A stretch of 64,000 nt of DNA from Neoarius graeffei (lineage: Eukaryota; Chordata; Actinopteri; Siluriformes; Ariidae). The notes under the pieces are model-generated. The model saw nothing but the letters and a program-made list of their open reading frames with translations. It was not told the DNA's origin and ran no database searches. Each line of letters begins with the position of its first letter. The stretch's first letter is position 1. Shown here piece after piece: positions 17,226-63,696 of this stretch. The stretch spans positions 1,640,287 through 1,704,286 of the forward strand of contig NC_083578.1 of the NCBI RefSeq assembly GCF_027579695.1, written 5' to 3'. The translations under genes and the position numbers were made by a program.

Positions 17226-17227
17226 TA

Positions 17228-23648: not shown

Positions 23649-24213
23649 GACAGCAGATGCTCCACTGATAATAAACAGATGAAAAAAGTGTGTAATTGTT
23701 GATATGGTGAAGTTTTCTGTAATGTGTTTATGTGACGTTTCTGTAAGGAGTCTCCAGTGTCAGCGCTGTGTAAGTCAGAGGTGAAGCTGGAGCTTTAAGT
23801 TTTATGGCATCTTCAGGACAGAGGAGTTTACACTTCTTTACAGTTTCTCAGGAACATGACAAACTGTGTTTTTTTCTTATTAATTTTAAGAGAGAGAATA
23901 AAGAGAGACTGATGAAGGAGCTACTGTTTATAGCTGCTATAATGTTAGCGACAACAGGAACTCACTTGGTTCAAAATTGTAATCATTGCTGTGGTAACTG
24001 TTAGAGGAATAAATCACAAGGGGACATGCTGTTAAGGAAACTAATCTTCAGGGTCATAACAGTCACTTAACAGGAACATGATGCTTTAATGACGAAGAAC
24101 ATTCCTATAGCTAATCCCAGTATTCCAACAGCAATTCCCACTGCAAACACCACCGTTGGAGTTACACTCTGAATTACCACTGGTTCATCTGTGGAACACA
24201 CACGCACACACAC
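23649..24213. repeat. Direct repeat, copy 2 (right flank of the RLE LINE)
   Basis: 565 bp matching 20604-21171, with a small length difference and a few substitutions. It holds MITE-derived sequence (23649 to about 24040) and the working-position class II alpha membrane exon. Together with copy 1 it looks like a target duplication around the LINE, but far longer than normal. Confidence 0.9.
24067..24188 (-). CDS. Class II alpha exon 4 (connecting peptide, membrane helix, tail)
   Basis: The acceptor AG is at 24190-24189. The first codon is completed by the last base of exon 3 (D). DEPVVIQSVTP is followed by a ~22-residue membrane helix with a GxxxG-type pattern (VGIAVGILGLAIG, as in class II alpha chains), then FVIKASCSC and TAA at 24069-24067. 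It is duplicated at 21145-21024. Confidence 0.88.
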
Positions 24214-24291
24214 ACATACACACACACACACACTGAGTCAGTGTTATGAAGTAAAATAAAGTGAAATAAATCCAGTGAAGCTGTTTCTCAC

Positions 24292-24573
24292 CCCATGTTC
24301 TAGTCTGAGGTGAGTCCAGAGCTTCATGCTCCACCGTGCAGCTGTATTCATCTCCTTCAGTCGGAGAACTCGTCAGGATGGAGAATGAATTGAAGGTTCC
24401 ATCTGTGTTCATTGAATGCTGGCTGTTGTACACTCCCTCTGTCACTGACTCACCGTTCCTCATCCAGTTAACTTTGATGTGTGGAGGATAGAAATTCTTC
24501 ATAAAGCAGATGAAGTTATTTTTTACTCCAGGCACCACATTGTGTTTTGGGTAGATGCTGACCTCTGGAGGCT
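24292..24573 (-). CDS. Class II alpha exon 3 (alpha-2 immunoglobulin domain)
   Basis: A 282-nt C1-set Ig domain: EPPEVSIYPKHNVVPGVKN, first cysteine in NFICFMKNFYPP, WMRNGESVTEG, second cysteine in YSCTVEHEAL, ending TRTWG. The acceptor is TTTTTTGTTCAG and the donor GTGAGA. Both cysteines, the tryptophan and VEH are intact and the frame is open, so this exon is well preserved. Confidence 0.92.
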
Positions 24574-24823
24574 CTGAACAAAAAAGCAAGTCACATTTTT
24601 AGACAAAACATAAGCAAGTACAGATACAAGGTTAAATGTTCCTAATAAAGTGTCCACTGAGTGAACATCTATTTAACACTGAGCACACTCTGAGTATTAT
24701 TTTTTTTATTATACAGTGAGAATAGTTACACATGAACAATGTCAAGCTTTTGTTTTGGTTCAAATGTTGGCTATAAAATATGGGAGGAGAAAACAAGAAA
24801 ATAATGTCAGTTAAAAATCATCA
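24574..24823. other. Remaining native intron 2 sequence next to alpha-2
   Basis: About 250 bp of AT-rich DNA between the alpha-2 acceptor and the first Gypsy LTR. No repeat or coding content was recognised, so it is probably original intron. Confidence 0.4.
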
Positions 24824-26680
24824 TGTAGTAGCATGGGTGTGGTCAAGCATCAGCTGTGGGCGGTGAGGAGTCAGGTAGACCCAGCAGGTAACGCGTGATG
24901 AGTTGTACCTGTGTGTGGCAGCAGGGGCGTGGTCAAGTGTCGGTCTGTCAATGGAGGGCAGAGTCAGGGAAGGTAAGTGGCAGAATCACTGCACCTGATG
25001 TGAGTTAACCTGTGTTTGTGTGTCTTCCCCAGTGACCGCGCCCTATAAAAGGAGAGAGAGAGCAGAGAAAGGGAGCTCTCTCCTGACCCGAATGCATGTG
25101 TGAGAGACTGAATGAGCTGAAAAGCCACACATCATTAGAAATAGAAGAGTTTCTGAGAACTCAGTTCTGGCCTGTCGTGCTTCTGTGCTCCACCCACCTG
25201 CTTTGGTTCTACAGTGGTGCCGAAACCCGGGATGGAGCGCAGAAGGAGACAGCCCCATGGAGTCCTCCCCCTTCAAGGACCTGGTCCATGCCCTCGCCTC
25301 GGCCCAACAGAGCCAGCACCAGGCGCTGGTCGCACTCCAGAAGGAGCAAGAACAATGGTTTGAAGCCCTGGTGCTGGCACAGCAGGAACATCGCCAGGCA
25401 TTCCGGCACCTGCTCGCGTCGGCGGGGTCCACCATCACCACTGCCACGGACCCTCCCCACCTCACCCTAACGAAGATGGGTCCGAACAATGACCCCGAAG
25501 CCTTCCTCGCTCTTTTTGAGCAGGCAGCAGAGGCGTGGGTTTGGCCGGTAGAACAGCACGTGGCGCGCCTCCTCCCCCTGCTAACGGGCAAGACGCAGCT
25601 GGCCACCCTACAGCTCCCCGCTGACAGCCGGCTGGTCTACGCCGACCTCTGCAGGGCCATCCTCCAATGTGTGGGGCTCACCCCGTAGCAGCAACGGCAG
25701 CGCTTCTGCACACTGCGCCTGGAGGAGGTCGGCCAGCCGTTCGCGTTTGGCCAGCAACTCCGGGATGCCTGCTGGCGGTGGCTGAGGGCTGACAACTGTG
25801 ACGCCGAGGGAATCATCGACCTGGTGGCGCTGGAACAATTCATCGCCCGACTTCCGGAAGGAACAGCAGAGTGGCTCCAGTGCCATCGCCCGGCATCACT
25901 GGTTCAGGCCATCGAGCTGGCGGAGGACCATACGGTGGCTGTTCCGATGGCAGGCCAGCGTGTCTCCTCTTCTCCCCTCTCTTCTCTCTCTCTCTCTCCC
26001 CTTCTGTTTCTCATCCTCACCCCATTCCCCCAATGCGGAGGCGGGGGCCAGCTCCACCCCAGCCGGCCCACCACACCAGCGGTGCCCTACCATTTCCTAT
26101 TTCCATGTCTGTGTCTTCCCCCCCTCAGGTGAGTGAGCTCTGAAACACCAGTGCAGAGGGAGAGCCTGGGCCAGTATGCTGGCACTGCAGGGAGCTGGGG
26201 CACCTCCAGCATCAGTGCTCGGCGATGGAGCTGGGCGCGGTGGTCCGGATCCCCGATGCACCAGAGACCGCCCTTGATCGGGCCGGAGCGTATCGCATAC
26301 CGGTGAGTATCCAAGGGGATACGTATCAGGCTTTGGTGGACTCCGGTTGTAATCAGACCTCAATCCACCAAAGCCTGGTGCAAGATGAGGCATTGGGGAA
26401 AGCACAATTGGTGAAGGTGTTGTGTGTGCACGGGGATGTTCACAACTACCCTTTAGTGTCGGTCCACATTCTATTTCGAGGGGAGAAATTTAGAGTAAAG
26501 GTGGCGGTTAATCCTCGCCTTACCCACTCGATAATTTTGGGGACTGATTGGTCGGGATTTTGTCAGTTTGGGAGTTTGGCAGTTTGGGTCACTCACCAAG
26601 GTGTTGTGACAGTACTCCTCCTACTCCTGTTTCAGATGTGTCCACCTCCACAAACCCTTTATCAACATCAGTAATTGAGA
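24824..26680 (+). mobile_element. Gypsy-type LTR element fragment (first family), broken
   Basis: A probable 5' LTR at 24824-25214 (TG...CA, TATA-like CCCTATAAAAGG near 25041) is followed at once by TGGTGCCGAAACCCGGGA, a tRNA primer-binding site. Next come a gag region (25257-25688: coiled coil with AQQSQHQALVALQKEQEQ, then a SCAN-like capsid part) and an aspartic protease (26225 onward: ALVDSGCNQTSI, IILGTDW). The element stops near 26680, where a different Gypsy family begins. Reverse transcriptase is absent. It is broken in a few places. Confidence 0.8.
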
Positions 26681-28874
26681 GTTCCTAGCGGTTAATTAGC
26701 TCTAGAAGAGTGGAGACACTGGTTGGAGGGCACAGCACACCCATTCATGATCCTGATAGATCATTGGAACCTCGAGTACTTGAAAACAGCAAAACGTCTG
26801 AACCCCTGTCAGGCCAGATGGGCCTTGTTCTTCACACAATTCCAGTTTATCATCTCCTATCATCCCAGTTCCCAGAATACCAAGGTTGATCCTCTATCCT
26901 GAATCCACTCATCCTCACTGCACTTGTCAGAACCTACCACCATCTTGCCACCTGAATGCTTCCTACAAACTATAACCTGGGACGCAGATAAATAGATCAG
27001 ACTGGCACAACCCACAAACCCTTCTGAAAATTGTCCGCCTGGACTGTTACATGTTCTGCCCAGACTTCGAGGCAAACTCATCACCTGGGCAAACTCATCT
27101 CCTGCCACTGGACACCCCAGCAGCCATCGCACTTACTTGCTCCACCAAATCAAGTATTGGTGGGAAAACATGATTTCTGACATTAATCATGACATTTCCT
27201 CATGCTCCGTCTGTGCCCAAGCCAAGGTTCCCAGAGATCCTCCCACTGGCAAACTAAGTCCTCTCTCAGTACCCCAGCAGCCCTGGTCACACATCACTCT
27301 TGACTTCATAATTGACTTACCCCAGTCACAAAGCAACACCGTCATCCTGGTCATCATTGATAGGTTCTCAGAGACACTCAGACTCATCCCACTACCGGGT
27401 GTACCCACTGCACTGGAAACAGCTGAATTGCAATTCACTTACATCTTCCATTACTATAGTATCCCCGAGGACGTTGTCAGTGACCGGGGCCCCCAGGTCA
27501 TCTCAAGGTTATGGTCATGATTCATGGACAAGCTGGGAGTATCAGTTAGTCTCACATTTGGATAACACCCCCAGTCCAATGGCCAAGCAGAATGAGCTAA
27601 TCAAGAAGTAGGCTGATTCCTCCATATATACTGCATGAGAAACCAGAAGGATTGGGCATAATTCCTTCCCTGGGCTGAGTATGCACAAAACTCTCTTAAA
27701 CATTCAGCCTTTCAGCTAACCCTGTTCCAGTGCATACTCAGATACCAACCTCCATTCTTTCCATGGGACGTCACCCCTATGCAAATTCCAGCCATTGACT
27801 CCTGGTTCCAGAGGAGCCAACAGATATGGGAGGAGGTACATCAAAGACTGGAGAACATCAATGCCAAGTACAAACACTATGCCCACAAACACAGAAGCAC
27901 CACTCCCGAGTATGCCCCAGGTAATAGAGTATGGGTTTCCACCAAGGACTTCAGAAGTCCCGACTCCTGTAAGAAGCTACAAGCCAGGTTCATCGGTCCG
28001 TTCAAGATAACATGCAGCATTAACAAGGTCTTGTACAGGCTCACGATTCCTCCTCACAGCAAGATGGCACCCACATTTCACATCTCATGCCTCAAACCTG
28101 CTATCCAAGGTCCCCTAGCCTCAGACACACCCACCCAAGAAACCCCCTCCCCAGACATTAAAGGCGAATTAATCTACCAAGTCAAGGAGATCCTCAATTC
28201 CCACCGCAGATGGGGACAACTCGAGTACTTGGTCAACTGGGAGGGCTACGGCCCTGAGGAGCAATGTTGGGTCAGCTCCAGAGACATCTTAGACTCCCTG
28301 CTTAGTCAAGAGTTCCACAGCGAGCACCCTGAAAATTCTGCACCGAAAAAGAGAAGTTGACCAAGGAAGGAAGTTGCTCCCAGAGGGAGCTTCTCCGGGG
28401 GGTGTTTCTGTCAGTAACAGTGTTGAAAACCTGAGTTCGGAGCAGCCTCCAAACATGGCCACTCCGGATTACACTTCCCAAGAGCCACAGCGCCCCCTAT
28501 CACTGGAATTCTCATGACTTCACCTGCAGCCAATTACCCTGCAATCACCAACCCTACTTAAGCTCAGCATTCACAAACACACCTCACGAAGTATCATTCT
28601 GTGTCCCATACCTGACTATACCAAGCTGTTTGTTTTCCTGACTGACTTCCTGATAAAGACCACTGTTTCATTACCTTCTGACCTTATTTCCTCGTCTCTC
28701 CTGCATTGCCCTGTTTACTGATCAATCGACCTGCGTCTGTTTCCTGACCATGATTTCTGCCTCGCAATTTGGCTACAGCTGCAGTTTGTGCTGCACCTGC
28801 TCTCCCCTGCATCTTTATCCATAAGTGCCTGCGTTCTAACACATACAAATAAACTGACTTCACTAGATTTGACA
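26681..28874 (+). mobile_element. Gypsy chromovirus fragment (second family), 3' half with LTR, broken
   Basis: It begins inside RNase H ([16 protein letters not shown]), followed by an integrase (HITLDFIIDLPQSQSNTVIL, DVVSDRGPQ) and a C-terminal chromodomain ([17 protein letters not shown]) near 28215-28260. A purine tract leads into the 3' LTR at 28409-28874 (TGTCAGTAACAG ... TTTGACA). It has several breaks and no 5' half, so it looks older than copies A-C. Its LTR is unlike that of the neighbour at 24824. Confidence 0.82.
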
Positions 28875-28884
28875 GAACATATCA

Positions 28885-28985
28885 GAATGAGTGCATTAAT
28901 ATGAACCTGTGCTAGTGTCAGAGCTGCTGTTATAGAGAATTAATCAACACCTTCTGACCAATCAGAGTCCAGAACGCAGTGTTGT
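28885..28985 (-). mobile_element. MITE end, inverted relative to 20465-20560
   Basis: CTGCTGTTATAGAGAATTAA and CAACACCTTCTGACCAATCA are the reverse complement of the MITE start near 20470-20520. This is the other end, or another copy, of a palindromic fish MITE. Confidence 0.6.
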
Positions 28986-30360
28986 GTGTATGTATATATG
29001 CACAGAACAGCTATAACATTAAACCCACTGACAGGTGACGTGAATAACACCGATTATCTCATTACAATGGCACCTGTTAAGGGGTGGGGTTTATTAGGCA
29101 GCACGGGAACAGTCAGTTCTTGAAGTTGATGTGTTGGAAGCAGGAAAAATGGGCAAGCATAAGGATCTGAGTGACTTTGACAAGGGCCAAATTGTGATGG
29201 TTAGAAGACTGGGTTTTAGCATCTCCAAAATGGCACATCTGGTGGAGCGTTCCCAGTATGCAGTGATGAGTACTGAACAAAAGTGATCCAAGGAAGGACA
29301 ACCAGTGAACCTGTGACAGGGTCATGGGTGTCGAAGGCTCATTGGTTTGCATGGGGCATGAAGGCAAGCCCATATGGTCCAATCCCACAGAAAAGCTTCT
29401 GCAGCACAAACTGCTGAAAAAGTTAATGTTGACACCTTTCTGTTTGAGCCATCATGCACTTTTTCAGCAGTTAGTTTGTGAACTAATAGGTAGGTACTAA
29501 CTACTGCATACTGGGAACACCCCACAAGATGTGCCATTTTGGAGATGCTCAGACCCAGTCATCTAGCCATCACAATTTGGTCCTTGTCAAAATCACTCAG
29601 ATCCTTATGCTTGCCTATTTTTCCTGCTTCCAATACATCAACTTCAAGAACTGACTGTTCTCTTGCTGCCTAATAAACCCCACTCCTTAACAGGTGTCAC
29701 TGTAATGAAATAATCAATGTTAATCTATCCACATTCACTGGATATGAGCAGTTGTGTGCTCTGGTTGGCTACTCTACTACTAGGCCATAGCTTGTATAGA
29801 CCCTTTTCAGTCACGTGACCTTCGTAAATGCGACCACCATTTTGGACATGTAGCGGACTTCGGCTCGAATTGGTTTGAATGCGAGGAAGGCGACAAACGG
29901 AGAACATACAAGAAAAAGGACCGAGATGCAGAAAACACCTTCACTATCCAGCGACGTAGGGCATTTACAGGGCGAGCAGAGGGAGAAATAACAACAGTAA
30001 CGACACATTAGCAACGCCGTACAGAAATAACGGTTTATGGCACAGACCCTTTCGGTTCTTGCTCATCTAGCTGCTACAATGACTGCTTAGACTGCAACAA
30101 TAATACCTAACACACATTTAAGTATCCGTCGTAAAGACGTGAAACTCATCGAGTGACGAGTGTGTTCATTGATAAGCTAACACAATCTAAAAGTAGACAT
30201 ACCATCACTCTGCCCTGGCGCTGTGTACAGTTTACCTTCTATGGTTTGTGCACTCACTATTTGCCATTACTTTCTCCAACCGTTGTTACAGATTACAGGG
30301 AACAGCCTGGATTTAAGAGACAAATACATGTTCCTCTTATTTTGAACACTTATTTGTAGG

Positions 30361-30741
30361 CAGTGCTTAATTTGTAAAGTGGGAGGTCCCGGAGCGCAGA
30401 GGATGAGCGGCTCCGGTGCGGGGAAAAAAGGGGGGGGAGGGGGGCGCGGCGCTGCGCTGCACTTCTGGGCATGTTTTGTAATAACACTGCAAATTAAGTT
30501 CATCTGCAGATATTTTGTGGATGTCGTTTCATGAGAGAAATCACCAACAAGACAGATATCAAAATCAGACATTAACACTAAATAAACTTGCATTTTTTAA
30601 TTTAATTATTTGTTGTTGTTTTTTTTTGTTACATAGTCAAAAGAGGTGTCGGATCACCGGATCCAGTGTAAATAGCTGCCGGAGCCAACGCCCGAGGTTC
30701 CGGAGCGCGCTCCGGCTTGCTCCCTCTCAAATTAAGCGCTG
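30361..30741. mobile_element. hAT-type MITE with perfect 8-bp target duplication
   Basis: 381 bp with ends CAGTGCTTAATTTG and CAAATTAAGCGCTG, and an internal inverted repeat around GGAGCGC. It is flanked by TTTGTAGG at 30353-30360 and again at 30742-30749. An 8-bp duplication and CAG-type ends are the hAT hallmark. It has no coding capacity and lies inside the THAP element. Confidence 0.9.
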
Positions 30742-30944
30742 TTTGTAGGACACTGCCTCTGATCTGTCCTACAGTCTACCAACAGCAAAGGAACACAATG
30801 CTAGCTAATGTCGTTAGCTAATAGCTACTACAGAAGAACAAAGAGGTTACAATGGGTTATTTTAGCCTATTTGGTTACACACTCGCCGCCACAGAATGTT
30901 AACAGCAATGTAATGCCTTTTCTGGCTAATTTTATTCATCTTAC

Positions 30945-31092
30945 CTCCAACAAAGTGGTCACTACACAAACGTTGGTATGCCGCTATCCATCTTCTCCAT
31001 CGGTCAGCATCTACCGGGATCCGATAAAATGATAACCCTTGCCTTGTTTGTTGATGGTTACTACATCCAGGTGCACAACAACATAGTGGCAT
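30945..31092 (-). pseudogene. THAP zinc-finger exon of a DNA transposon
   Basis: From ATG 31092: MPLCCCAPGCSNHQQTRQGL, then SFYRIPVDADRWRRWIAA and LCSDHFVGG, ending at the donor GTAAGA. This follows the THAP C2CH pattern (C-x4-C, the P of RIP, RW, C-SDHF). The helix between RRWIAA and LCSDHF is shorter than normal, so residues may be lost. THAP domains bind transposon ends. No second exon was identified. Confidence 0.6.
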
Positions 31093-31677
31093 GATGGAAG
31101 TCTTGCTGAAAATAAACACTTTCTTTGCTGCCGTTCCTCAATGTTGTTTGTGGTAAACTACTGGTAGTACATGTCCAAAATGGCGGCCGCGTTTGTCGTG
31201 ACATCACATGAAAAGTGTCCAGACCGGAGCATGTTGCTGAACCAACAAAGGACAAAATAAAAACTACTCGAAAACAAAACCCCCAAAAATACAAAAAAGC
31301 AACGAAATATGGAATAAAAGTATTTGATGATAAGAATGTATCTTTTTATTTTTCAAGAATTATTGCATTTTTCACAAATTGCTCCTGTCATTTTGCTGGT
31401 TTGTTTACATTCTAAGCGGAAATGATTTTGTCAAACATTTCGTATAAAGTTTTTATGGATTGAATTTGCAAAAAATAAAAATAAAAATGCTCTGTTTCTC
31501 AAAATCCAGTGAGTGTGAAGAGAATAAAACAGTTATTCCACTCAATCTTGTCATACACAGATTATAGCCAACTCGTGGTACGTGCCTTGTCAGCTATCAG
31601 CTCATGTATGACTCGATTTCATGGAATAACTGTTAAATATTCACTTCACCTGTCAGTGGTTTTCATGTTATGGCTAG

Positions 31678-31707
31678 TGTGTGTGTGTATGTATGTGTGT
31701 GTGTGTG
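31678..31707. repeat. (GT)n microsatellite
   Basis: A GT run with a TATG interruption at the right edge of the palindromic Tc element. Confidence 0.85.
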
Positions 31708-32292: not shown

Positions 32293-32307
32293 ATGTTTTG
32301 TTTGAGG

Positions 32308-32673
32308 GGCGGCATGATGGTGTAGTGGTTAGTGCTGTCGCCTCACAGCAAGAAGGTCCTGGGTTCGAGCCCCAGGGCTGGCGAGGGCCTTTCTGTGTGG
32401 AGTTTGCATGTTCTCCCCATGTCCGCGTGGGTTTCCTCCGGGTGCTCCGGTTTCCCCCACAGTCCAAAGACATGCAGGTTAGGTTAACTGGTGACTCTAA
32501 ATTGACCGTAGGTGTGAATGTGAGTGTAAATGGTTGTCTGTGTCTATGTGTCAGCCCTGTGATGACCTGGCGACTTGTCCAGGGTGTACCCCGCCTTTTG
32601 CCCATAGTCAGCTGGGATAGGCTCCAGCTTGCCTGCGACCCTGTAGAAGGATAAAGCGGCTAGAGGAGATGAG
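32308..32673 (+). mobile_element. tRNA-derived SINE, complete, with 15-bp target duplication
   Basis: The head has Pol III A- and B-box-like words (GGTGTAGTGGTTAGTGCTGT; GGTTCGAGCCC). A conserved body (TTTCTGTGTGGAGTTTGCAT, CCGGTTTCCCCCACAGTCCA) and a tail AAGGATAAAGCGGCTAGAGG follow. ATGTTTTGTTTGAGG is repeated at 32293-32307 and 32674-32688, a LINE-type target duplication. The head resembles the DANA/Mermaid group of fish SINEs. Related copies lie at 59521, 59933, 62793 and 63697. Confidence 0.92.
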
Positions 32674-33385
32674 ATGTTTTGTTTGAGGAGAGTCCAGTTG
32701 ATAGTTGAACCTCGGATTCAGGAGGAACAATGCAGTTTTCATCCTGATCATGGAACACTGGACCAGCTCTTTACCCTTGCAAGGGTACTGGAGGGTGCAT
32801 AGGAGTTTGCCCAACTGGTCTACATGTGTTTTGTGGACCTGGAGAAGGCTTACGACCGTGTCCTTCGGGGTGCCCTGTGGGGGCATGCATTAGGTGTTAG
32901 GACTAGGACTGTTTTGGCCTCTAGAGGCCGCTGTTATTTCCTTTTCATGTCGTGTTTATTTTGGCCTCTAGAGGCCGCCACTGTTCCTGTGTTTTGTGTT
33001 TGTGTTAATTGCCTAATTATCTTCACCTGTGTCCTTAATTAGTTTGTCTATTTATACCCCTGAGTTCAGTCCTCTTGTCACGGAGTCTTTGTGCTGTTAT
33101 GTTTATCTCCAGTTTCCTTTGTACTGTGTTTTTTGATCTTCTTAGCTTTTGAATTTTTGCACTTTGCTTTTCTTTTGGATTATACTCTTTGGTTTTTTTT
33201 TGTCTTTTGTTTTGCCCTGTATATAGTGTATATAGTTTAAATAAACCTTTTGATTCTTTTTCTACTTCCGCCTCACGCCTCTGCATTTGAGTCATCCCCC
33301 TGGTGGCCTAGTGGGGGTTTGCTGGATTATCACACCAACGAACCAGGTTCGAATCCCAGCAAAACCCTAACAGAAAGACTCCGTC

Positions 33386-34405
33386 ATGACCGACTCAGCA
33401 GAGGCTGCTTCAACTGTCTACCCGGCCAACCTTCAGGGAATTATGGCAGCTTTGACATGCTTCGGAGCGACCATGGACGCTCATGGACGTACGCTCACCA
33501 GCCAACGTGAGGCCCTCGCTCGCCACGAGGAACTGCTTCAGCAAATTGGGAAAACCCTGGCACAGCTGACATCTCTGCCTGCATCTCCTGCTCCTGATCC
33601 AGTTCCTGCTCCTGATCCAGCTCCCACTCCTGCTCCAGTGCCTCCTGCAATGCTGCCTTCTTCACCTCGCGAACCCAGCCTTCCTGCACCACAGAGGTAT
33701 GACGGCAAGCACAGTGAGTGCCGAGAGTTCCTTACCCAGTGTCAACTCACCTTTGAGCTTCAGCCTACCACCTACACTACGGATCGCCGCAAGATTGCCT
33801 TTGTGATCACCTTATTAGCTGGTAAGGCGCGAGCCTGGGCTACTGCTATCTGGCAAAGACAGGGACCTGAGTGCTTTGATTTCCAGCTGTTTTCTGAAGA
33901 GATGCTTCGGGTCTTCGATCAGGCAGACATCAGTACCGACGCAGCCCGAAAGCTCATGTCCATCCGGCAAGGAGGAAGCGTCGCAGATTACGCCATCTCG
34001 TTCCGAACACTCGCAGCAGTAAGTGGATGGAACGAGACTGCCCTGGTGTCAGCCTTCCACCATGGTCTGTCTGACCCCATCAAGGACGGTCTGGCCTCTA
34101 TTGGATGCCCAAGTGACCTCGAAACCCTCATCTCACATGCTATTCGTCTGGACAACAGGATGAGAGAACGCCACCAAGCCTTGAGCCCCCCCAGCCTCCC
34201 TACCTCTACCTGGAGACCGTCTACCTCCTTCAGTGACTGTCCAGAACCCATGCAAGTGGGTCGTACTCGCCTCTCCGCATCTGAGAGGGAGCGCAGAAGG
34301 AGGGACAAGTGCTGCATCTACTGTGGCAAGCCTGGTCACTTCCGAGCATCATGTCCCGAACTCTTGGGAAAAGGACCGCCCCGTCCAGCCGAGGGAGGGT
34401 TGTGA
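33386..34405 (+). CDS. gag: Gag protein of Gypsy copy B
   Basis: 339 residues, forming the particle that packages element RNA in the cytoplasm. The N-terminal half has a predicted coiled coil ([20 protein letters not shown]) and a Pro/Ala-rich linker made of DPAPTPAPV-type repeats. A Ty3/Gypsy-type capsid domain follows ([38 protein letters not shown]). A CCHC zinc knuckle ([16 protein letters not shown]) sits near the C-terminus. The start at 33386 is 14 bp past the LTR. It overlaps the pol frame. Confidence 0.93.
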
Positions 34406-37400: not shown

Positions 37401-37704
37401 TCTGAGGATCAACCCCACTTTCCATGTTTCCCTGTTACGGCCCGTACTGACGTCTACGTATGCCCCTGCCCCTAGGAACCCCCCACCCCCCCGCATCTTC
37501 CAGGGGCAGACTGTGTTCACTGTGAATCGCCTGCTTGACTCCCGCCGGGTCCGCGGCGGGTTGCAATATCTGGTGGACTGGGAGGGCTATGGTCCTGAGG
37601 AGCGCTGCTGGGTTCCTGCTCGGGATGTCCTTGATAAAGAACTATGTCGGGACTTCCATTCGGCCCATCCGGATCGCCCTGGGAACGTCAGGAGACGCTC
37701 CTAG
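34309..37704 (+). CDS. pol: Pol polyprotein of Gypsy copy B (protease, RT, RNase H, integrase, chromodomain)
   Basis: 1131 residues in a different frame from gag, overlapping its end. Gypsy elements commonly reach pol by frameshift or read-through. Order: aspartic protease ([13 protein letters not shown] near residue 65), reverse transcriptase (GVGKKDGG-type start, [24 protein letters not shown]), RNase H ([24 protein letters not shown]), integrase with an HHCC-like zinc region (SCEVCTRTK) and a D-D-E core ([39 protein letters not shown]), and a C-terminal chromodomain ([17 protein letters not shown]). The chromodomain is thought to steer integration to marked chromatin. Confidence 0.95.
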
Positions 37705-45733: not shown

Positions 45734-45829
45734 AGTCTCGATGTAGTGGGCCCTGAGTGACGACTCTGTGCAGCTAGCAGACAGTCGGTTTAGCCTGTTT
45801 GTCTGCTCCCTGGCCTTGGCTCTGGATTG

Positions 45830-46759
45830 TCAGAAATTAACTAGGCCTGTTCTGAGACTATGACCTATGCTGCAGGAAATGAGAGCAGCACCTTCCCGAG
45901 TGGGATGGATACCGTCCCGCCCTAACAGGCCAGCAGTGCCCTCAAAATTAGCCGAATTATCTATAAAGCCCACACTGTTTTCAGAGCACCACCTGGACAG
46001 CCAGCAGTTCAGCGACCATAACCTGCTGTAAGCTACATCGCCACGCCGCATTGGGATGGGGCCAGAGCATACTACAGCATCGGACATCGCCTTCACTAAT
46101 TTAAACACCTCTACAAAGTTAGTCTTAGTAACCTCAGACTGACGAAGGCGTATATCATTAGCTCCTGCATGGATAACTATCTTTGAGAACCTGTGCTTGC
46201 CTAGGACCCTAAGATTACCTGCTATGTCCGGCGCCCTGGCTCCCGGTATACACCTGACTAAAGCTGCTGGTGCCCCTAAAGGCTGAGCTAATTTCACGTG
46301 CCGTATGATAGAGTCCCCTATAACCAGAGCTCTTTCAGGTTTCTCAGTGGGTGCATCACTAAGGAGAGCAAACCTGTTCGGCACGTGACGCGGAGAGGAG
46401 TGGTGCTCCCGTGGGCGAGCCTCAGCGGTAGCTTTGGCTCTACGCTTATGCCGCCGAGCCGTCACCCATTCGCCCCGCTGTAAGGGCTCTAATGCCGGAG
46501 TTGGGGGATTGCTAACTCCACCTAGGGCGTCCAGACTTTCCCTAACAGAAACTACACTGTTCTCACGCTCACTAACCTGCTCTAAAGCCTGGACACGCGC
46601 TTCTAGCACTGAAATCTTCTCCGTCAGAGAGCTAACTAATCTGCACTTATCACAAGTAAAGCTAATAGAGCTATCGCTAGTGACGGAGGAAGAATGACTA
46701 AACATCCTGCACTCAGCACACTGAACAGGCTGAAGGGGTGCCATGATGAAAAGATTCAT
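45830..46759 (-). CDS. L2-type LINE ORF1: CxxC zinc motif, coiled coil and SGNH esterase domain
   Basis: 309 residues. The N-terminus has two CxxC pairs (VQCAECRMFS and FTCDKCRLVS, about residues 12-40), then a leucine-rich coiled coil (LTEKISVLEARVQALEQVSE). A basic linker follows (TARRHKRRAKATAEA). The C-terminal half is an SGNH-hydrolase fold: ALVIGDSIIRHV (nucleophile serine block), IVIHAGANDIR (block III) and LLGRDGIHPTREGAALIS (Asp-x-x-His block). CR1/L2-group LINEs often carry such an esterase in ORF1; its role in transposition is uncertain. All catalytic blocks look intact. The ATG at 46759 has another ATG at 46744 (MAPLQPVQC), which may be the true start. Confidence 0.9.
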   Translation of the reverse strand: MNLFIMAPLQPVQCAECRMFSHSSSVTSDSSISFTCDKCRLVSSLTEKISVLEARVQALEQVSERENSVVSVRESLDALGGVSNPPTPALEPLQRGEWVTARRHKRRAKATAEARPREHHSSPRHVPNRFALLSDAPTEKPERALVIGDSIIRHVKLAQPLGAPAALVRCIPGARAPDIAGNLRVLGKHRFSKIVIHAGANDIRLRQSEVTKTNFVEVFKLVKAMSDAVVCSGPIPMRRGDVAYSRLWSLNCWLSRWCSENSVGFIDNSANFEGTAGLLGRDGIHPTREGAALISCSIGHSLRTGLVNF

Positions 46760-47109
46760 GTACCTTAAATGAAGATCTGTTTATATTAAAGCAGATCAGA
46801 TGGCCTCCGCTTGTGGACTTTACACAGGAGGAGAGAAAAAGAAAGCTTCCGGTCTCAGCGTTCTTCCAAAAAAAGAAAGAGAAAAAAACAGGAAAAAAAA
46901 AACGGAAAAAGGAAAGCGAAAGTGAAAAGTACAAAAATGAAAGCGACAGTATAATAAAAATGAAGAGGATACTGGAAATTTATTTACAGAAAAAAAGTTA
47001 AAAAAGGATTAGTAATTAACGCCGGCACTCGCGGGAAAAAGGACTCGGTGCGAACAACTCAGGAAACAGGAAGTGCATAAACCAGGAAGTGCGTAAACCA
47101 TTACCCAAG

Positions 47110-48613
47110 CCGAAGTCACTGAGGTGGTTTGCAAGCTCCTCGGTGGCAGGGCACCGGGGGTGGATGAGATCCGCCCTGAGTATCTCAAGTCTCTGGATGT
47201 TGTGGGGCTGTCTTGGTTGACACACCTCTGCAACATCGCGTGGCGGTCGGGGACAGTGCCTCTTGAGTGGCAGACTGGGGTGGTGGTCCCTCTTTTTAAG
47301 AAAGGGGACCGGAGAGTGTGCTCCAATTATAGGGGAATCACACTTCTCAGCCTCCCAGGGAAAGTTTACTCCAGGGTACTGGAGAGGAGAATTCGACCAA
47401 TAGTCGAACTCGGATCCAGGAGGAACAATGTGGTTTTCGTCCTGGTCGCGGAACACTGGACCAGCTCTATACCCTTCATAGGGTGCTCGAGGGTTCATGG
47501 GAGTTTGCCCAACCAGTCCACATGTGCTTTGTGGATCTGGAGAAGGCATTCAACCGTGTCCCCCGTGGTATTCTGTGGGGGGTGCTTTGGGAGTATGGGG
47601 TTCGGGGCTCTTTGCTAAGGGCTGTCCGGTCCCTGTACAAACGGAGCAGGAGTCTGGTTCGCATTGCCGGCAGTAAGTCAGACCTGTTCCCAGTGCATGT
47701 TGGACTCCGGCAGGGCTGCCCTTTGTCACCGGTTCTGTTCATAATTTTTATGGACAGAATTTCTAGGCGCAGCCAGGGGCCGGAAGGAATCCTTTTTGGG
47801 AACCACAGGATTTCATCTCTGCTTTTTGCGGATGATGTTGTCCTGTTGGCTTCTTCAAACCAGGACCTTCAGCATGCACTGGGGCGGTTTGCAGTCGAGT
47901 GTGAAGCGGCTGGGATGAGAATCAGCACCTCCAAGTCCGAGGCCATGGGTCTCGACCGGAAAAGGGTGGCTTGCCCTCTCCAGGTTGGTGGAGAAGTCCT
48001 ACCTCAAGTGGAGGAGTTTAAGTATCTCGGGATCTTGTTCACGAGTGAGGGAAGGATGGAGCGTGAGATCGACAGGCAGATCGGTGCAGCCTCCGCAGTG
48101 ATGCGGTCGCTTTACCGGTCCGTCGTGGTGAAGAAGGAGCTGAGCCAAAAGGCGAAGCTCTCAATTTACCGGTCGATATACGTTCCGACTCTCACCTATG
48201 GTCATGAGCTTTGGGTAATGACAGAAAGAACAAGATCGCGGATACAAGTGGCTGAAATGAGTTTCCTTCGCAGGGTGGCTGGGTGCTCCCTTAGAGATAG
48301 GGTGAGAAGCACAGTCACTCGGGAGGAGCTCGGAGTAGAGCCGCTGCTCCTCCACATCGAGAGGAATCAGCTGAGGTGGCTCGGGCATCTTTTTCGGATG
48401 CCTCCTGGACGCCTCCCTGGGGAGGTGTTCCAGGCATGTCCCCCCGGGAGGAGGCCCCGGGGAAGACCCAGGACACGCTGGAGGGACTATGTCTCTCGGC
48501 TGGCCTGGGAACGCCTCGGTGTTCTTCCCAAGGAGCTGGCCGAGGTGTCTGGGGAAAGGGAAGTTTGGGCTTCCATGCTTAGACTGCTGCCTCCGCGACC
48601 CGGTCCCGGATAA
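47110..48613 (+). pseudogene. Rex3/RTE reverse transcriptase and C-terminal domain
   Basis: 47110-47420 carries the fingers (GRAPGVDEIRPEYLK; VPLFKKGDRRVCSNYRGIT). From 47483 a 376-codon frame runs to 48613: FVDLEKAFNRVPRG (motif A), GLRQGCPLSPVLFIIFMDRI (motif B), LLFADDVVLLAS (motif C, intact FADD), EVLPQVEEFKYLGILF, the thumb LTYGHELWVMTERTRSRI, and the basic RRPRGRPRTRWRDYVSRLAW tail. At least one frameshift lies between the two frames near 47420-47480. The other catalytic positions look sound, so the copy is moderately young. Confidence 0.88.
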
Positions 48614-48642
48614 GTGGAAGAAGACGACGAAGACGATTAACT

Positions 48643-49365
48643 GTGAACACAATTCACCGTGCCATCCGCCATTGCCAGCTAAAACTCTATAGTTCAAAGA
48701 AGAAGCCGTATCTAAACATGATCCAGAAGCGCAGATGTCTTCTCTGGACCAAGGTTCATTTAAAATGGACTGTGGCAAAGTGGAAAACTGTTCTGTGGTC
48801 AGACGAATCAAAATTTGAAGTTCTTTATGGAAATCAGGGACGCCGTGTCATTCGGACTAAAGAGGAGAAGGACGACCCAAGTTGTTATCAGCGCTCAGTT
48901 CAGAAGCCTGCATCTCTGATGGTATGGGGTTGCATTAGTGCATGTGGCATGGGCAGCTTACACATCTGGAAAGACACCATCAATGCTGAAAGGTATATCC
49001 AGGTTCTAGAGCAACATATGCTCCCATCCAGACAACGTCTCTTTCAGGGAAGACCTTGCATTTTCCAATATGACAATGCCAAACCACATACTGCATTAAT
49101 TACAGCATCATGGCTGCGTAGAAGAAGGGTCCGGGTACTGAACTGGCCAGCCTGCAGTCCAGATCTTTCACCCATAGAAAAGATTTGGTGCATCATAATA
49201 CGGAAGATACGACAAAAAAGACCTAAGACAGTTGAGCAACTAGAATCCTACATTAGACAAGAATGGGTTAACATTCCTATCCCTAAACTTGAGCAACTTG
49301 TCTCCTCAGTCCCCAGACATTTACAGACTGTTGTAAAGAGAAAAGGGGATGTCTCACAGTGGTAA
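48643..49365 (+). pseudogene. Tc1 transposase, C-terminal two thirds
   Basis: A 240-codon frame continuing the Tc1 torn at 39895: [54 protein letters not shown]. All three catalytic acids are present with 34-residue spacing. It ends at VSQW and TAA, the family's normal terminus. The N-terminal DNA-binding part lies 8.7 kb to the left and is damaged by stops (39554-39895). Confidence 0.88.
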
Positions 49366-49404
49366 ACATGGCCTTGTCCCAACTTTTTTGAGATGTGTTG
49401 TTGT

Positions 49405-50459
49405 TGTAGGGACAGTCACATCTCGTCTAAGAACTACAGATCCCATCAACCAATTTCCACGATGACCTACGTCACGCCTAGGCAGGATCACCTACGTCAC
49501 TTCCTCCATGACTCTATAAGTGACCCAGAAACTTCCAACTCAGCCTCTTTGGTGCTGTGAATCTCGCCACGGACCGGAGCGTTCCACAGACATAAAGAGG
49601 CCCGCTCACCAGAACATCTAAAACCAAGACGTCTGCTTTGCAAGAAAGAATTCAGCGTGCTTTCATTTACCACTGGCCACGGTAAACTTCCAAAATCGCG
49701 CGATCTAACTCAGATTGAGTTACAACTGGTTTCCTTTCATTTGTTCATTAAGTAACATTACGACTGCAGCCCAAAGCAGTTAATTTAAAGTTAGAAGTGA
49801 CCGGATTCCTTCTGACTAAAGCGCTGTGCACATTGTTTGATCAGAGACTTTTCCTCACGAACGCTGAAGTTCAGACCAAGAATTCTCTGCTTTTCCATGG
49901 AAGCGACCCATGTGCTCCAGTGAACTCCAGAAGTTTCGGAACATCTCAGCATAATCTTGCATATAAGCAAGATACTGGAAGTAAGACTGGCATTTTGGGC
50001 AAAACTAGTCTTAGGAATTAGCTTTATGAAGTAGTGTGAATTTAAACTCAGGAACGGTTTAATTGTGCACACTGTAGACACTCAGGGTGTTGAATTGATC
50101 ATTGTTCTATTTTTGTTCTCTCAATTGTTAATAGATAGGCTGTTGCATGCTTTGCTATCCTTTCTAACATCCTTTAATTTCATTATTACACATATTTTGA
50201 CCTCATCAAGATTTCAGTGGATTTAGTAACGTTATAAGCTAGTGGAATTAGCTGCTATGGCTAATTCTTTTGTCTCATTAGCATCCAGGGCTAATTCTAT
50301 TGTCTCAAGGGACCACGAGGTTGTCACCCTCCCCAACACACACACACACCTTAGATAACATTCCAAGCCCTGATTCATTTCAACCTTTACAGCGCATTTT
50401 CCCGTGCTCACATTCAAACCCTTTTTGTCTCCTCCTTCCCATACTGCGCAGTCATGTAC

Positions 50460-50504
<45 letters not shown>

Positions 50505-50921
50505 CTTTGCTCTCTCTCTCCCCTCGCACACACACACACACACAGACACACGCACACATATACACACACACACATATGTATTGCTGATCATATTTGAATG
50601 TATTCAACTGCTATTACTCATTTTTTTCCATTGTTATAATAAATTCAATTATTCTGAAAACTGAGATTGTCTGTTTTTGCTGATATCCTTGAAGTCATCC
50701 AATCTCAAAGAATTCCAAGGTGTATGAGTGCTATTGGCTGTAGTTTGGTAAGTGATACATTATTGCTGCATTGGTAGTGATCATAATAATTTGGAATATA
50801 CCATAATTTAGCTGTTTTGATAATTTATTATTAAGCACCAAAATTAAAGGTATTATTACTGAGACTGATTTAATGAGACTGATTTAATGAGATTGATCAC
50901 TTAGGACCAATCACACCCACA
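49405..50921. mobile_element. Probable solo LTR (about 1.5 kb) inside Tc1
   Basis: It starts TGTAGGGACAGTC, ends CACACCCACA, and is flanked by TTGT at 49401-49404 and 50922-50925. The Tc1 sequence is continuous once it is removed. It has no coding frame of note. It contains TATA-like CTCTATAAGTGACC near 49513, CA repeats at 50463-50574 and an AATAAA signal near 50638. The TG...CA ends and short duplication fit an LTR left by recombination. The family is not known and no internal region is in the window. Confidence 0.55.
50463..50574. repeat. Two (CA)n microsatellites
   Basis: CA runs at 50463-50503 and about 50527-50574, separated by a CT-rich spacer (TTTGCTCTCTCTCTCCCCTC), within the probable solo LTR. 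Confidence 0.92.
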
Positions 50922-51155
50922 TTGTCATGAAATTTAAAATCACCTAATTTTTCTCTTTAAATGATACATTTTCTCAGTTTAAACATTTGATATGTCATCT
51001 ATGTTCTATTCTGAATAAAATATGGAATTTTGAACCTTCCACATCATTGCATTCCGTTTTTATTTACAATTTGTACTTTGTCCCAACTTTTTTGGAATCG
51101 GGGTTGTATTATTACCTACAAAATGACAATATTTATGTTTCATATTTGCCTCAGT

Positions 51156-54100
51156 TGTTAGGGTTTTGAACCTGGTTCACTGGTGTGATAATCCAGCAAA
51201 CCCCCACTAGGCCACCAGGGGGATGAATCAAATGCTGAGGCGTGAGGTGAAAGTAGAAAAAGTATCAAAAGGTTTATTTACAATATTTACACTATTTACA
51301 ATCTAAGGCAAAAACAAAAGTATAATCCAAATGCTCAGAAGATAACCAGGAAAAAAACAAAAGTTCAAAGAAACAAAGAGCCAAAAAACCAGAAAAGAAG
51401 AGGCAAAAATACAAATGCTCAGAGGATCCAAAATGGTAAACACAAAGTCTAAAAAGTCCAAAAGAAAGCAAAGTACAAAAACCACAAAGACACGGGCGAG
51501 GAAATCGGAACAGAGGTAACTGGAGCTAAACATAACAGCACAAAGACTCCGTGACAAGAGGACTGAACTCAGGGGTATAAATACACAAACTAATTAAGGA
51601 CAGGGCGGGGCAGGAAACAGGCAATAAGACAAAAACAAAACACAGAACACAGTGGTGACCTCTAGAGGCCCAAAACAAACATGGTCAGAAAAGGAAATAA
51701 CAGTGGCCTCTAGAAGCCAAAACAGTCCCAGTCCTAACAGGACCCCCCCGCCCCTCAGGAGCGTCTCCTGATGTTCCCAGGATGATCAGGATGGGCCGAA
51801 TGGAAGTCCCGACAAAGTTCTTTATTGAGTATGTCCCAAGCTGGGACCCAGCAGCGCTCCTCAGGGCCATAGCCCTCCCAGTCCACAAGATATTGGAGGC
51901 CCCCGCGAACCCGGCAGGAGTCCAGCAGGCGGTGCACGGTGAACACAGTCTGACCCTGGAAGATGCGGGGGGGCAGGGGGTTCCTAGGGGCAGGGGCATA
52001 CGTGGACGTCAGTACAGGCCGCAACAGGGAAACATGGAATGTGGGGTTGATCCTTAGCATGCGTGGTAACTAGAGCCAGTAGGAGACAGGGTTAACTCTG
52101 CGTACAACCTTGAAGGGGCCAATGTAGCAAGGAGCAAGCTTGCGGTTCTCCACCCGCAGCGGAAGGTCCTTGGTGGACAGCCAAACCCGCTGCCCAGGGT
52201 GGAAAGTGTGGGCAGGTCTCCTATGTCGGTTGGCCTGAGTCTGGTTGGTACTGGAGGTCTGGATGAGTGTCCTCCTGACCTTGCTCCAGGTCTTGCGACA
52301 CTGTCTCATGTAATGGTTGACCGAGGGCACCCCAGCGTCCTCCTCCTGGTCCGGGAACAGAGGTGGCTGGAACCCGAATTGGCATTGGAACGGTGACAGC
52401 TTGATGGCCGATGACTGCAGGGTGTTGTGGGTGTACTCTGCCCATGGCAGCCAGGTGCTCCACGATGTCGGGTTATCCATAGCCAGGCCTCGCAGGGTGG
52501 TTTCCAGGTCTTGGTTGAGCCTCTCCGTCTGGCCATTGGACTGGGGGTGGAACCCAGAGGAGAGGCTGGCAGTGGCCCCGATGCTCTTGCAGAAGCCATG
52601 CCATACTCGCGAGGAGAACTGGGGACCCCGGTCAGAGACGATGTCCTGAGGGAGACCAAAAACTAGGAAGACATGAGTGAACAACAATTTAGCAGTGTCA
52701 AGGGCAGAGGGGAGTTTGCACAGTGGAATAAAGTGGCAGGCCTTGGAGAATCTGTCCACTATGACCAATATGACAGTGTTAACTTGAGACTCAGGGAGAC
52801 CCGTGATGACGTCGACCGCCACGTGGGACCAGGGACGCCGGGGAATAGGCAGAGGATGCAGGAGACCCTGGGGACACTGTCGCGGGTTCTTGGTTCTGGT
52901 GCAGACCTCACAGGACAGGACGAATGACCTCACTTCCTTCTCCATGTTAGGCCACCAGAAGCGTCTTTTCAGGAAGTCCAGGGTCCTCCGAGCTCCCGGG
53001 TGGGCGGTGAGAGGGGAAGAGTGACCCCACTGGAGAACCTTGGCCCGGGCTTGACAAGGGATGTACAGGAGGCCCGGTGGCCCCGTCCCAGGATCAGGGT
53101 ACTCAAGGTTCTTATGGTCCGTCCACACCAGGAATGGATGTTGCGCTCCCTCCAGCCAGTGCCTCCACTCCTCAAGGGCTCGTTTGACTGCTAGCAGTTC
53201 CCGATCCCCCACATCATAGTGGGACTCCGCAGGGCTCAGGCGGTGGGAGAAGTAAGCGCAGGGGTGCAGCTTCCCTTCTGAGCGTTGAGAGAGCACCGCG
53301 CCGACACCACTGTCCGAGGCGTCCACCTCCACAATGAATGGTTGGGAGGTGTCCGGGAGAACCAGAATGGGTGCCATGCGAAAGCAGTGTTTTAGGTCAT
53401 TAAACGCCTCTTCCGCCTGAGGGGACCAGACAAAGAAGCCACCAGTCCTTTTGGTGAGGTCCGACATAGGTGCAGCTATGGAACTGAAGTTCCTGATGAA
53501 CTTGCGGTAGAAGTTAGCGAATCCTAAGAACCGCTGAACCTCCTTAACGGACTTGGGAGTAGGCCAGTCCCGGACGGCCAGGGTCTTGGCTGGGTCCATC
53601 TGGAGTTGCCCCGTTTGTACGATAAATCCCAGGAAGGAGACCTCAGGGACATGAAACTCACATTTCTGGGCTTTAGCAAACAGATTATTCTGCAAGAGTA
53701 TCTGGAGGACTTGGCAGACATGGTGGCAGTGCTCCTGTAAGGTCTTGGAGAATATAAGAATGTCATCGAAGTAGACGAAAACGTATAGATTAATCATATC
53801 CCTCAAGATGTCATTGATAAGGGCCTGAAAAACAGCTGGTGCATTGGTGAGTCCGAAGGGCATCACCTGGTACTCGTAGTGCCCTGACGGGGTGTTAAAG
53901 GCGGTCTTCCACTCGTCTCCCTGTCGGATACGGACGAGGTGATATGCGTTCCGTAAGTCCAACTTGGTGAAGATGGTGGCGCCTTGGAGCAGGTCGAATG
54001 CTGTGGACATCAGCGGAAGGGGATAGCGGTTGTGCACGGTGATCTTGTTCAGGCCCCTATAATCAATACATGGCCGGAGACCCCCATCCTTCTTGCCGAC

Positions 54101-56403
54101 AAAGAAGAAGCCGGCACCACCGGGTGAGGTGGAGGGTTGAATGAACCCAGAGGCCAAGGCTTCCTTGATGCACTCCTCCATGGCCTTGCGTTCTGGCTGA
54201 GAGAGGGAGAACAGACGGCCCCGAGGAGGAGTAGTCCCAGGGAGCAAGTCGATGGCACAGTCGTAGGCACGGTGCGGAGGAAGAATGGCAGCCCTGCTCT
54301 TGCTGAAGATCTCCTTGAGATCCCAGTACTCTGTGGGAACTTGAGATAACTCGGTGAGATCAGGGGGCTCGGCAGGAGACACAGGAGAGCTAAAGAGCAG
54401 ACAAGAGGCATGGTATGCAGGGCCCCATTCCACAACCTGGCTTGTAACCCAGTCTATACGAGGGTTGTGGCGGGTAAGCCAAGGAAGACCTAGAATAACT
54501 GGGAACTCAGGTGAAGGAATCAGGTGCAGGGATATTTCTTCCTTGTGACCTTGAGACTGGAGGAAGACTGGAGAAGTAACTTGGGTGACTCTTCCATCAC
54601 CTAATGCTTGGCCATCGAGGGCAGACACAGACAGTGGGACTTCAAGAGGCGCAGTCGGGACATTGATGCTTTGGGCGAAGTGGATATCCATAAAGTTTCC
54701 AGCCGCCCCTGAGTCTAACAAGGTTTGACAAGAGTGGACGGACTCACCCCAGGAGATGGAGACCGGGATGTAGATTCCTTGGCCAGGGAGTCTGGGAGAG
54801 AGGGTAGGCCCCATCATAACCCTCCCTCGGCTGGACGGGGCGGTCCTTTTCCCGAGAGTTTGGGACATGATGCTCGGAAGTGACCAGACTTGCCACAGTA
54901 GATGCAGCACTTGTCCCTCCTTCTGCGCTCCCTCTCAGATGCGGAGAGGCGAATATGACCCACTTGCATGGGTTCTGGACAGTCACTGCCGGAGGTAGAC
55001 GGGCTCCAGGTAGAGGGGGGCCAGGGAGGCTCAGTACTTGGCAGCGTTCTCTAATTCTGTTGTCCAGACGAGTAGAATGTGAGATCAGTGTTTCGAGGTC
55101 ACTTGGGCATCCGATAGAAGCCAGACCGTCTTTGATGGGGTCAGACAGACCATGGTGGAAGGCTGACCAATCCACTTACTGCTGCAAGCGTCCAGAACAA
55201 GATGGCATAGTCTGCGACGCTTCCCCCTTGCCGGATGGATATGAGCTTTCTGGCTGCGTCTTTACTGATGTCTGCTTGATCGAAGACACGCAGCATCTCC
55301 TCAGTAAACAGCTGGAAATCAGAGCACTCAGGTCCCTGTCTCTGCCAGATAGCAGTAGCCCAGGCTCGCACCTTACCAGCTAACAAGGTTATCACAAAGG
55401 CAATCTTGCGGCGATACGTAGTGTAGGTGGTAGGCTGAAGCTCAAAGGTGAGTTGACACTGGGTAAGGAACTCTCGACACTCACTGTGCTTGCCGTCATA
55501 CCTCTGTGGTGCAGGAAGGCTGGGTTCGCGAGGTGAAGAAGGCAGCATGGCAGGAGGCACTGGAGCAGGAGCAGATGGTGGAGCAGGAGTAGAATCAGGC
55601 GGAGGAGATGGGGGCAGAGAAGTCAGCTGTGCCAGGGTTTTCCCAATCTGCTGAAGCAGTACCTTGTGGCGAGCAAGGGTCTCACATTGGCTTGTGAGAG
55701 TCCGTCCATGAGTGTCCATGGTGGATTAACGCAGCCGTCATTCCCTGAAGGTTGGCCAGGTAGACAGATGAAGAAGCCTCTGCTGAGTCAGTCAGGACGG
55801 AGTCTTTCTGTTAGGGTTTTGCTGGGATTCGAACCTGGTTTGCTGGTGTGATAATTCAGCAAACCCCCACTAGGCCACCAGGGGGATGAATCAAATGCTG
55901 AGGTGTGAGGCGAAAGTAGAAAAAGTATCAAAAGGTTTATTTACAATATTTACACTATTTACAATCCAAGTCAAAAACAAAAGTATAATCCAAACGCTCA
56001 GAAGATAACCAGGGAAAAAAACAAAAGTTCAAAGAAACAAAGAGCCAAAAAACCAGAAAAGAAGAGGCAAAAATACAAACGCTCAGAGGATCCAAAATGG
56101 TAAACACAAAGTCCAAAAAGTCCAAAAGAAAGCAAAGTACAAAAACCACAAAGACACGGGCGAGGAAATCGGAACAGAGGTAACTGGAGCTAAACATAAC
56201 AGCACAAAGACTCCGTGACAAGAGGATTGAACTCAGGGGTATAAATACACAAACTAATTAAGGACAGGGCAGGGCAGGAAACAGGCAATAAGACAAAAAC
56301 AAAACACAGAACACAGTGGTGACCTCTAGAGGCCCAAAACAAACATGGCCAGAAAAGGAAATAACAGTGGCCCCTAGAGGCCAAAACAGTCCCAGTCCTA
56401 ACA
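51156..56403 (-). mobile_element. Gypsy LTR retrotransposon copy C (sushi-like chromovirus), broken
   Basis: The LTRs lie at 51156-51739 and 55809-56403, with a perfect 5-bp target duplication TCAGT (51151-51155 and 56404-56408). It has the same layout as copies A and B, on the minus strand: gag from about 55720, zinc knuckle near 54900, protease, reverse transcriptase, RNase H, integrase and chromodomain near 51860. It is broken in roughly four or five places, including an internal loss in pol. It lies in class II alpha intron 2, about 210 bp from the alpha-1 exon. Confidence 0.93.
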
Positions 56404-56616
56404 TCAGTGAAATTTAGGGTGTTAAGAAAGCACCACTGCTTATTCTTTGCTTTAAATCATGTATCATTGAATAATAATGATGAACTGGAAACATTTATTA
56501 ATTCATTTTGGCTCACTGAATAAGAAAAAAGTGTTGCACTCAGATTCATGAAGCATCTCTACTTTAGGAATATTATAGCAAACTGCTTTAAACAATAATA
56601 AAATGTTTTTCATTAC

Positions 56617-56868
56617 CGCTGTACTCAGGTGAACTGCCAATCACTGCTATCGCATAATTCATGTCCTGAAGACAGTCATATCTTTCAATAATGGTGAACT
56701 CATTCAATTGTGAAAAATCAACTGGGTCTGCAAACGGAGGAAGTCGGCTGATTTGCTGCATGGTGGTGTAATCTGCAAAGATTATTTCATTCCCATCCAG
56801 AGTAAATAATTATTGAGATTCATTTACAGAGTCACTGCATGTGATCAGACGAGTGAACTTGTACACAA
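56617..56868 (-). pseudogene. Class II alpha exon 2 (alpha-1 domain) with in-frame stop
   Basis: 252 nt between acceptor CCCTTCTCCAG and donor GTAATG. It reads VYKFTRLITCSDSVNESQ, then a TAA (56812-56810), then LFTLDGNEIIFADYTTMQQI, SRLPPFADPVDFSQLNEFTI and RYDCLQDMNYAIAVIGSSPE. The two domain cysteines, the LDG-E--ADY core and the FADP turn are all recognisable class II alpha-1 features. Apart from the stop the domain is complete, so inactivation may be recent. Confidence 0.85.
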
Positions 56869-56975
56869 CTGGAGAAGGGAAAAAAACACATTTAAAAATC
56901 AGGTTTATGGCTTAAAAACTTAAATGTGATAAAGTGTTATAGTTATTCTATTCTATTCTATTTTTCACTACTTAC

Positions 56976-57030
56976 ACTCAGCGTTCACTGGCAGAATCAT
57001 TGCAATGACAAGAATCACACAGAGCTTCAT
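56976..57030 (-). CDS. Class II alpha exon 1 (signal peptide)
   Basis: ATG 57030 opens MKLCVILVIAMILPVNAE, a typical leader, ending in phase 1 at donor GTAAGT. The phase joins correctly to the exon at 56868. Confidence 0.82.
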
Positions 57031-57830: not shown

Positions 57831-57832
57831 TA

Positions 57833-59458: not shown

Positions 59459-59520
59459 TAAGCTCCATGTAGTGACAAATGATCATCTTCATTGTGTAGC
59501 CATGTCCTAAAGGTTAGAGG

Positions 59521-63684: not shown

Positions 63685-63696
63685 AAAATTACATTT

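Follow-up and report, generated by a model that had tools for sequence, protein, structure and literature searches.

A stretch of 64,000 nucleotides from Neoarius graeffei (Siluriformes, Ariidae; contig NC_083578.1 of assembly GCF_027579695.1, positions 1,640,287 to 1,704,286; hereafter the window) holds two genes of the major histocompatibility complex (MHC) class II on its minus strand, an alpha gene at 24067-57030 and, downstream of it, a beta gene at 1914-3520. The alpha gene has four exons: a signal-peptide exon (56976-57030, 18 codons and 1 nt, with the donor GTAAGT), a 252-nt alpha-1 exon placed by Pfam PF00993 and its splice sites (56617-56868), an intact alpha-2 exon of the immunoglobulin (Ig) C1 type (24292-24573, placed by a C1-set match), and a last exon encoding the connecting, membrane and cytoplasmic part together with the stop (24067-24188, copy A of two). 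A preliminary description of the window had put the signal, alpha-1, alpha-2 and membrane exons on one strand and in one phase, and these placements hold: every junction is in phase 1 with GT-AG intron ends, and the joined exons amount to 711 nt, or 237 codons. The normal 236-residue chain read from them does not survive, because an in-frame TAA at 56812-56810 (minus strand), codon 38 of 237 and inside alpha-1, had been counted through. The open frame is just 37 codons long, and none runs from the start codon to the final stop.

This TAA, known from a single assembled sequence, falls in the conserved part of alpha-1 and, in the three class II alignments that a PDB search displayed, all of them to I-Ak, aligns with the Tyr of GQYTFEFDG in mouse I-A alpha; by eye it lies outside any homopolymer run. 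With the stop entered as X, alpha-1 matches the Pfam family MHC_II_alpha (PF00993) with an expect value (E) of 1.3e-7 and 31.7 bits against a cut-off of 23, and alpha-2 matches the C1-set profile over its whole length (positions 1-86 of 86, E 9.7e-24, 84 bits). The exons descend from the MHC class II alpha family, of which this gene is not an intact coding member. A tblastn search of the 64-kb window with its own exon peptides, which a strongly diverged copy could escape, found a single alpha-1 exon, a single alpha-2 exon and two membrane exons; further alpha-2 rows belonged to the beta gene (E 3.5e-6) or were weak (E 0.78 or worse). A second complete class II alpha gene in the window was rejected on these single alpha-1 and alpha-2 matches. 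The preliminary description had named a separate class II alpha gene for either half as evidence that would count against a single gene, and none was found within these 64 kb.

In its layout the gene resembles the teleost class II alpha genes of the DA and DB groups that, with DE, are set out in the excerpted text of Dijkstra et al. 2013 (PMC4219347): four exons, an Ig C1 alpha-2 domain, a membrane exon and a beta gene nearby on the same strand. The CSDS stretch in alpha-1 is similar to the DA motif GCSDXDG in the Figure 3 legend of that paper, and this motif, along with repeat families recognized from general knowledge, suggests a teleost-type origin. Unlike those genes, the one described here is interrupted at codon 38 and has a truncated beta neighbour without His-Asn at 81/82. 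The same excerpts give alpha N62/N69 and beta H81/N82 as marks of classical (DA) molecules, and tie the absence of alpha-62 Asn and of beta-81/82 His-Asn to non-classical ones (PMC4219347). Read by eye in the I-Ak alignments, alpha-62 is not Asn here, and the residue at alpha-69 depends on the alignment.

The exons of the beta gene, read by eye, comprise a signal exon at 3520-3460, beta-1 at 2847-2584, beta-2 from 2416 and a membrane exon at 2027-1914, all on the minus strand. Beta-1 matches Pfam MHC_II_beta with 21.2 bits (cut-off 20.9). In beta-2 the C1-set match covers profile positions 13-68 of 86 only; homology is gone after about 2170, and the I-A beta matches shown end no more than about four residues away. 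By eye, beta-2 lacks the second Ig cysteine and a frame-keeping donor, and its end was not found further downstream in a reading by eye that used no query holding the missing part. Neither register tried in the alignment to I-A beta, again by eye, places His-Asn at beta 81/82. The beta-1 frame also stays open upstream of its acceptor (2564-2998, minus strand), where an ATG and a hydrophobic stretch resembling a leader (MGESAQRLVHSLCMFLTVVLILIVKS...) may form a second leader of the beta gene.

Two disabling lesions are therefore present in the coding frames, the stop in alpha and a beta-2 homology that ends short of the second Ig cysteine. Because these are separate lesions in two linked genes, the pair has most likely lost its function or is losing it. 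The locus probably holds an alpha/beta pair of teleost-type MHC class II genes at an early stage of decay, rather than a working gene with an extreme intron, and the premise of an otherwise normal gene gives way before the stop at codon 38 and the broken beta gene beside it. Several points weigh against early decay. The other 236 alpha codons are intact, and splice sites, start codon and final stop are all kept, so that the loss looks recent; alternatively, the alpha gene could be live but for the TAA, which would then be a null allele of recent origin or a sequencing error. The apparent loss of the beta-2 end is drawn from Pfam and PDB alignments and from reading by eye, and the true partner of alpha may be a different gene.

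These points lead to an unlikely alternative, in which the class II alpha gene works despite its extreme intron and the TAA is either a rare null allele carried by the assembled individual or a miscalled base. Such a gene would fit the single lesion in alpha and the intact splice sites, phases, alpha-2 exon and membrane exon. In its support, teleost class I genes of the U-lineage are described as having a large intron that separates alpha-1 from alpha-2 and is assumed to allow alpha-1 shuffling (excerpted text of PMC4810163). The likeness lies in the size of the intron that parts the first two extracellular domains; unlike the U-lineage genes, the gene here is class II, its intron is built of transposons and it carries a stop codon. 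The position of the TAA away from homopolymer runs speaks against this alternative, as do the separate breakage of the linked beta gene and a beta-1 domain whose missing His-Asn pair makes classical function doubtful. Early decay of a pair has a counterpart in the paired class II pseudogenes DFA-psi/DFB-psi of Atlantic salmon, where alpha and beta pseudogenes likewise share one region as decayed class II duplicates (excerpted text of PMC4219347). The salmon pair belongs to the DE group and its alpha gene is called partial, whereas here four alpha exons are kept and the group is not assigned.

If the gene is dying, its long second intron is far less surprising than it would be in a working class II gene. 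Teleost class II introns are normally short, a generalization that draws on one species, the miiuy croaker, and on general knowledge. Introns 1, 2 and 3 of the class IIA gene in that species measure 172, 525 and 1046 bp, as excerpted from PMC3162010, so that 32 kb of intron 2 here stands against 525 bp there. A literature search found no paper on a retrotransposon in intron 2 of a fish class II alpha gene, and the papers found for long class II introns and transposable elements did not, by their titles, concern fish.

Intron 2 (24574-56616, minus strand) is 32,043 bp long, and about 96% of it is mapped mobile elements (30,745 bp, with limits set by hand from self-comparison and good to a few bases); the remaining 1,298 bp lie in seven gaps of 24 to 615 bp each. 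The 32-kb intron built of transposons that had been proposed is real in this assembly, and the window contains no N. From the alpha-1 side, the order is 213 bp not assigned to an element, a Gypsy element (E3), 47 bp, a Tc1-like element, a long interspersed element (LINE) fragment holding a second Gypsy element (E2), a repeat resembling a short interspersed element (SINE), a THAP unit, a chimeric Gypsy element, 250 bp and alpha-2.

Several of these elements are nested. The Tc1-like transposon (39243-51108, plus strand, with a DDE_3 domain) is interrupted twice, and its pieces at 39243-39895, 48636-49404 and 50922-51108 jointly span positions 1-1609 of a relative at 15619-17227, with 11 gap bases in the first piece. 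Its first insert, N1 (39896-48635, no strand assigned), carries RVT_1 and endonuclease domains, with a weak endonuclease match at 40182-40853, and is probably LINE-like; its flank repeat in the Tc1-like element is 7 bp with one mismatch, which is weaker support. N1 in turn encloses a further LINE at 42755-46780 (minus strand). The second insert, N2 (49405-50921, 1.5 kb, no strand assigned), has TG..CA ends and a 4-bp flank repeat TTGT, again weaker support, and is possibly a solo long terminal repeat (LTR). The LINE fragment (32701-39218, plus strand) is split by Gypsy E2 (32895-38194, plus strand) and is collinear on both sides with 47400-48622. The SINE-like repeat (32308-32673, plus strand) has a 15-bp target-site duplication, ATGTTTTGTTTGAGG, read by eye. 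A unit resembling a DNA transposon (28994-31690, no strand assigned), with 53-nt inverted ends that are 81% complementary, contains a palindromic unit at 29042-29725 and a THAP domain at 30862-31137. Within the minus-strand LINE, the first open reading frame carries a GDSL-lipase/acylhydrolase domain (45830-46780; Lipase_GDSL_2, E 1.6e-11).

Nesting makes the Tc1-like element older than N1 and N2, and the LINE fragment, being split, older than Gypsy E2. The preliminary description held that such an intron can preserve the order of its insertions, and a partial order can indeed be read. Divergence between paired LTRs, given as Kimura two-parameter distance (K2P), separates the Gypsy insertions in age: E2 has 1 difference in 478 sites (K2P 0.002), E1, which lies outside the intron at 4312-9752, has 11 in 564 (0.020), and E3 (51156-56403, minus strand, sense to the alpha gene) has 17 substitutions in 579 sites (0.030); a duplication of the membrane exon, described below, stands at 0.007. 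All three elements are flanked by identical 5-bp target-site duplications (TCAGT on both sides of E3, TTAGG for E2 and GCCAC for E1). Since the split elements are collinear with their relatives across the inserts and target-site duplications are present, the evidence supports 32.3-56.6 kb as one true layered stretch, where a misjoin could still fall within the short stretches that have no assigned element. Five of the six LTRs of E1, E2 and E3 share a stretch, TGGCCTAGTGG, with at most two mismatches (e.g., 33304-33324 and 55857-55877), which we take to be like a tRNA A-box, and GGTTCGAATCC near the LTR edge, seen by eye, is presumably like a B-box; neither Rfam nor ARAGORN called a tRNA in those LTR stretches.

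The motif AATAAA occurs 18 times in sense in intron 2, where 100 first-order Markov sequences average 5.9, and 22 times in antisense. Considered as a sign of early polyadenylation, this excess has no direction, the antisense count being the higher. The first sense copy, at 56499, lies in sequence not assigned to an element, and the second, at 55941, in an LTR of E3, 676 nt past exon 2.

Between the two halves of the alpha gene a single positive sign of a joint was found, at 26.60-26.70 kb, within the chimeric Gypsy element (24824-28879, plus strand, LTR limits by eye); the preliminary description had not noted it. The left part of this element consists of an LTR and a protease (gag-asp_proteas, Pfam E 1.9e-6); the frame ahead of the protease, which matches nothing in Pfam, is taken as gag from its position only. 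The right part runs from pol through integrase and chromodomain to an LTR. Measured against the pol pieces of E2, the left part has a weak match (E 0.012) up to 26599, whereas sense pol in the right part starts at 26696 from residue 585 of this yardstick (E 3e-33). Between them lies a scar (26601-26695, minus strand) made of an inverted pol piece of about 80 bp (26601-26681, residues 524-551, E about 3e-4) and a short remainder not assigned. The two LTRs are unrelated: their local score of 18 compares with a mean of 18.4 and a maximum of 26 in 200 shuffles, and with 555 for a control pair of E1 and E3 LTRs. The idea that they are diverged copies of each other was rejected on this shuffle-level score. 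Two Gypsy elements of different families thus appear, from their sequence, to have been joined around an inverted scrap, in the manner of break repair; the joint marks a rearrangement or, with lower probability, an error of assembly.

Such a joint also admits a hybrid origin, in which the halves come from two class II alpha copies fused via Gypsy elements in their second introns and never formed one gene. The joining of a right part to the left part of another family across the inverted scrap, with unrelated LTRs, is what this origin would leave behind. The simplest cause of the scar, however, is that a deletion inside a single intron brought two of its Gypsy elements together, which gives the same result; the outer flanks of the chimeric element, CATCA and TATCA, match at four of five positions by eye (about 1.6% by chance, by our own arithmetic), a match that would suit one insertion site and that depends on 24824 as the left end, a second stretch resembling an LTR start being present at 24914. 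The tblastn search, moreover, gave no second alpha-1 or alpha-2 in the window. A hybrid origin is accordingly judged unlikely. An assembly misjoin at the chimeric element, the other doubt raised beforehand, is less likely still: the joint does fall in repeat DNA, in a window with no N to flag a gap, but the inverted scrap looks in our judgement like break repair rather than an assembler's join, and much of the remaining intron is held together by nested elements. The nesting tells against a misjoin inside 32.3-56.6 kb, and the junction at 26.6-26.7 kb is a possible joint.

The last exon of the alpha gene is doubled, a feature absent from the preliminary description. Copy B (21024-21145, minus strand) encodes the same 40 residues as copy A, and both belong to a duplication (20604-24214, minus strand) whose halves, 20604-21171 and 23649-24214, lie on either side of a LINE at 21172-23648. 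The halves, which include this exon whole, differ by four substitutions in 566 sites and one 2-bp gap. Two frames of the LINE match RVT_1 (E 2e-10 and 6e-10), it looks 5'-truncated, and one boundary of the duplication falls within a TG repeat. From these boundaries, a LINE seems to have inserted at the TG repeat of intron 3 and to have duplicated 566 bp of target, far more than is usual for a LINE.

Under early decay of the pair, a locus freed or nearly freed from selection would have collected Gypsy, Tc1, LINE, SINE and THAP-type insertions, and intron 2 would have grown to 32 kb stepwise and by nesting, one step being the rearrangement that fused two different Gypsy elements. The alpha gene would yield no protein and its message would be degraded, and the sense-oriented E3, with the AATAAA of its LTR at 55941, may end transcripts early. 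Elsewhere in the window, a Tc1-like element lies just upstream of the alpha gene (57831-59460) with 418-bp inverted ends that are 96% alike, unusually long for an element of this type, and a tRNA-Leu (TAA) gene (63612-63686, 64 bits in Rfam) adjoins repeat sequence at 63698-63878.

These results correct the claim that the locus is a functional MHC gene with an extreme intron. Were the hybrid origin true, transposons would here have shuffled exons of an MHC class II gene, and a stop codon would later have sealed the outcome. At what seems to be a dying class II pair, the partial insertion order raises the question of whether the intron grew before or after function was lost. Loci of this kind could also inflate MHC gene counts under automatic annotation.

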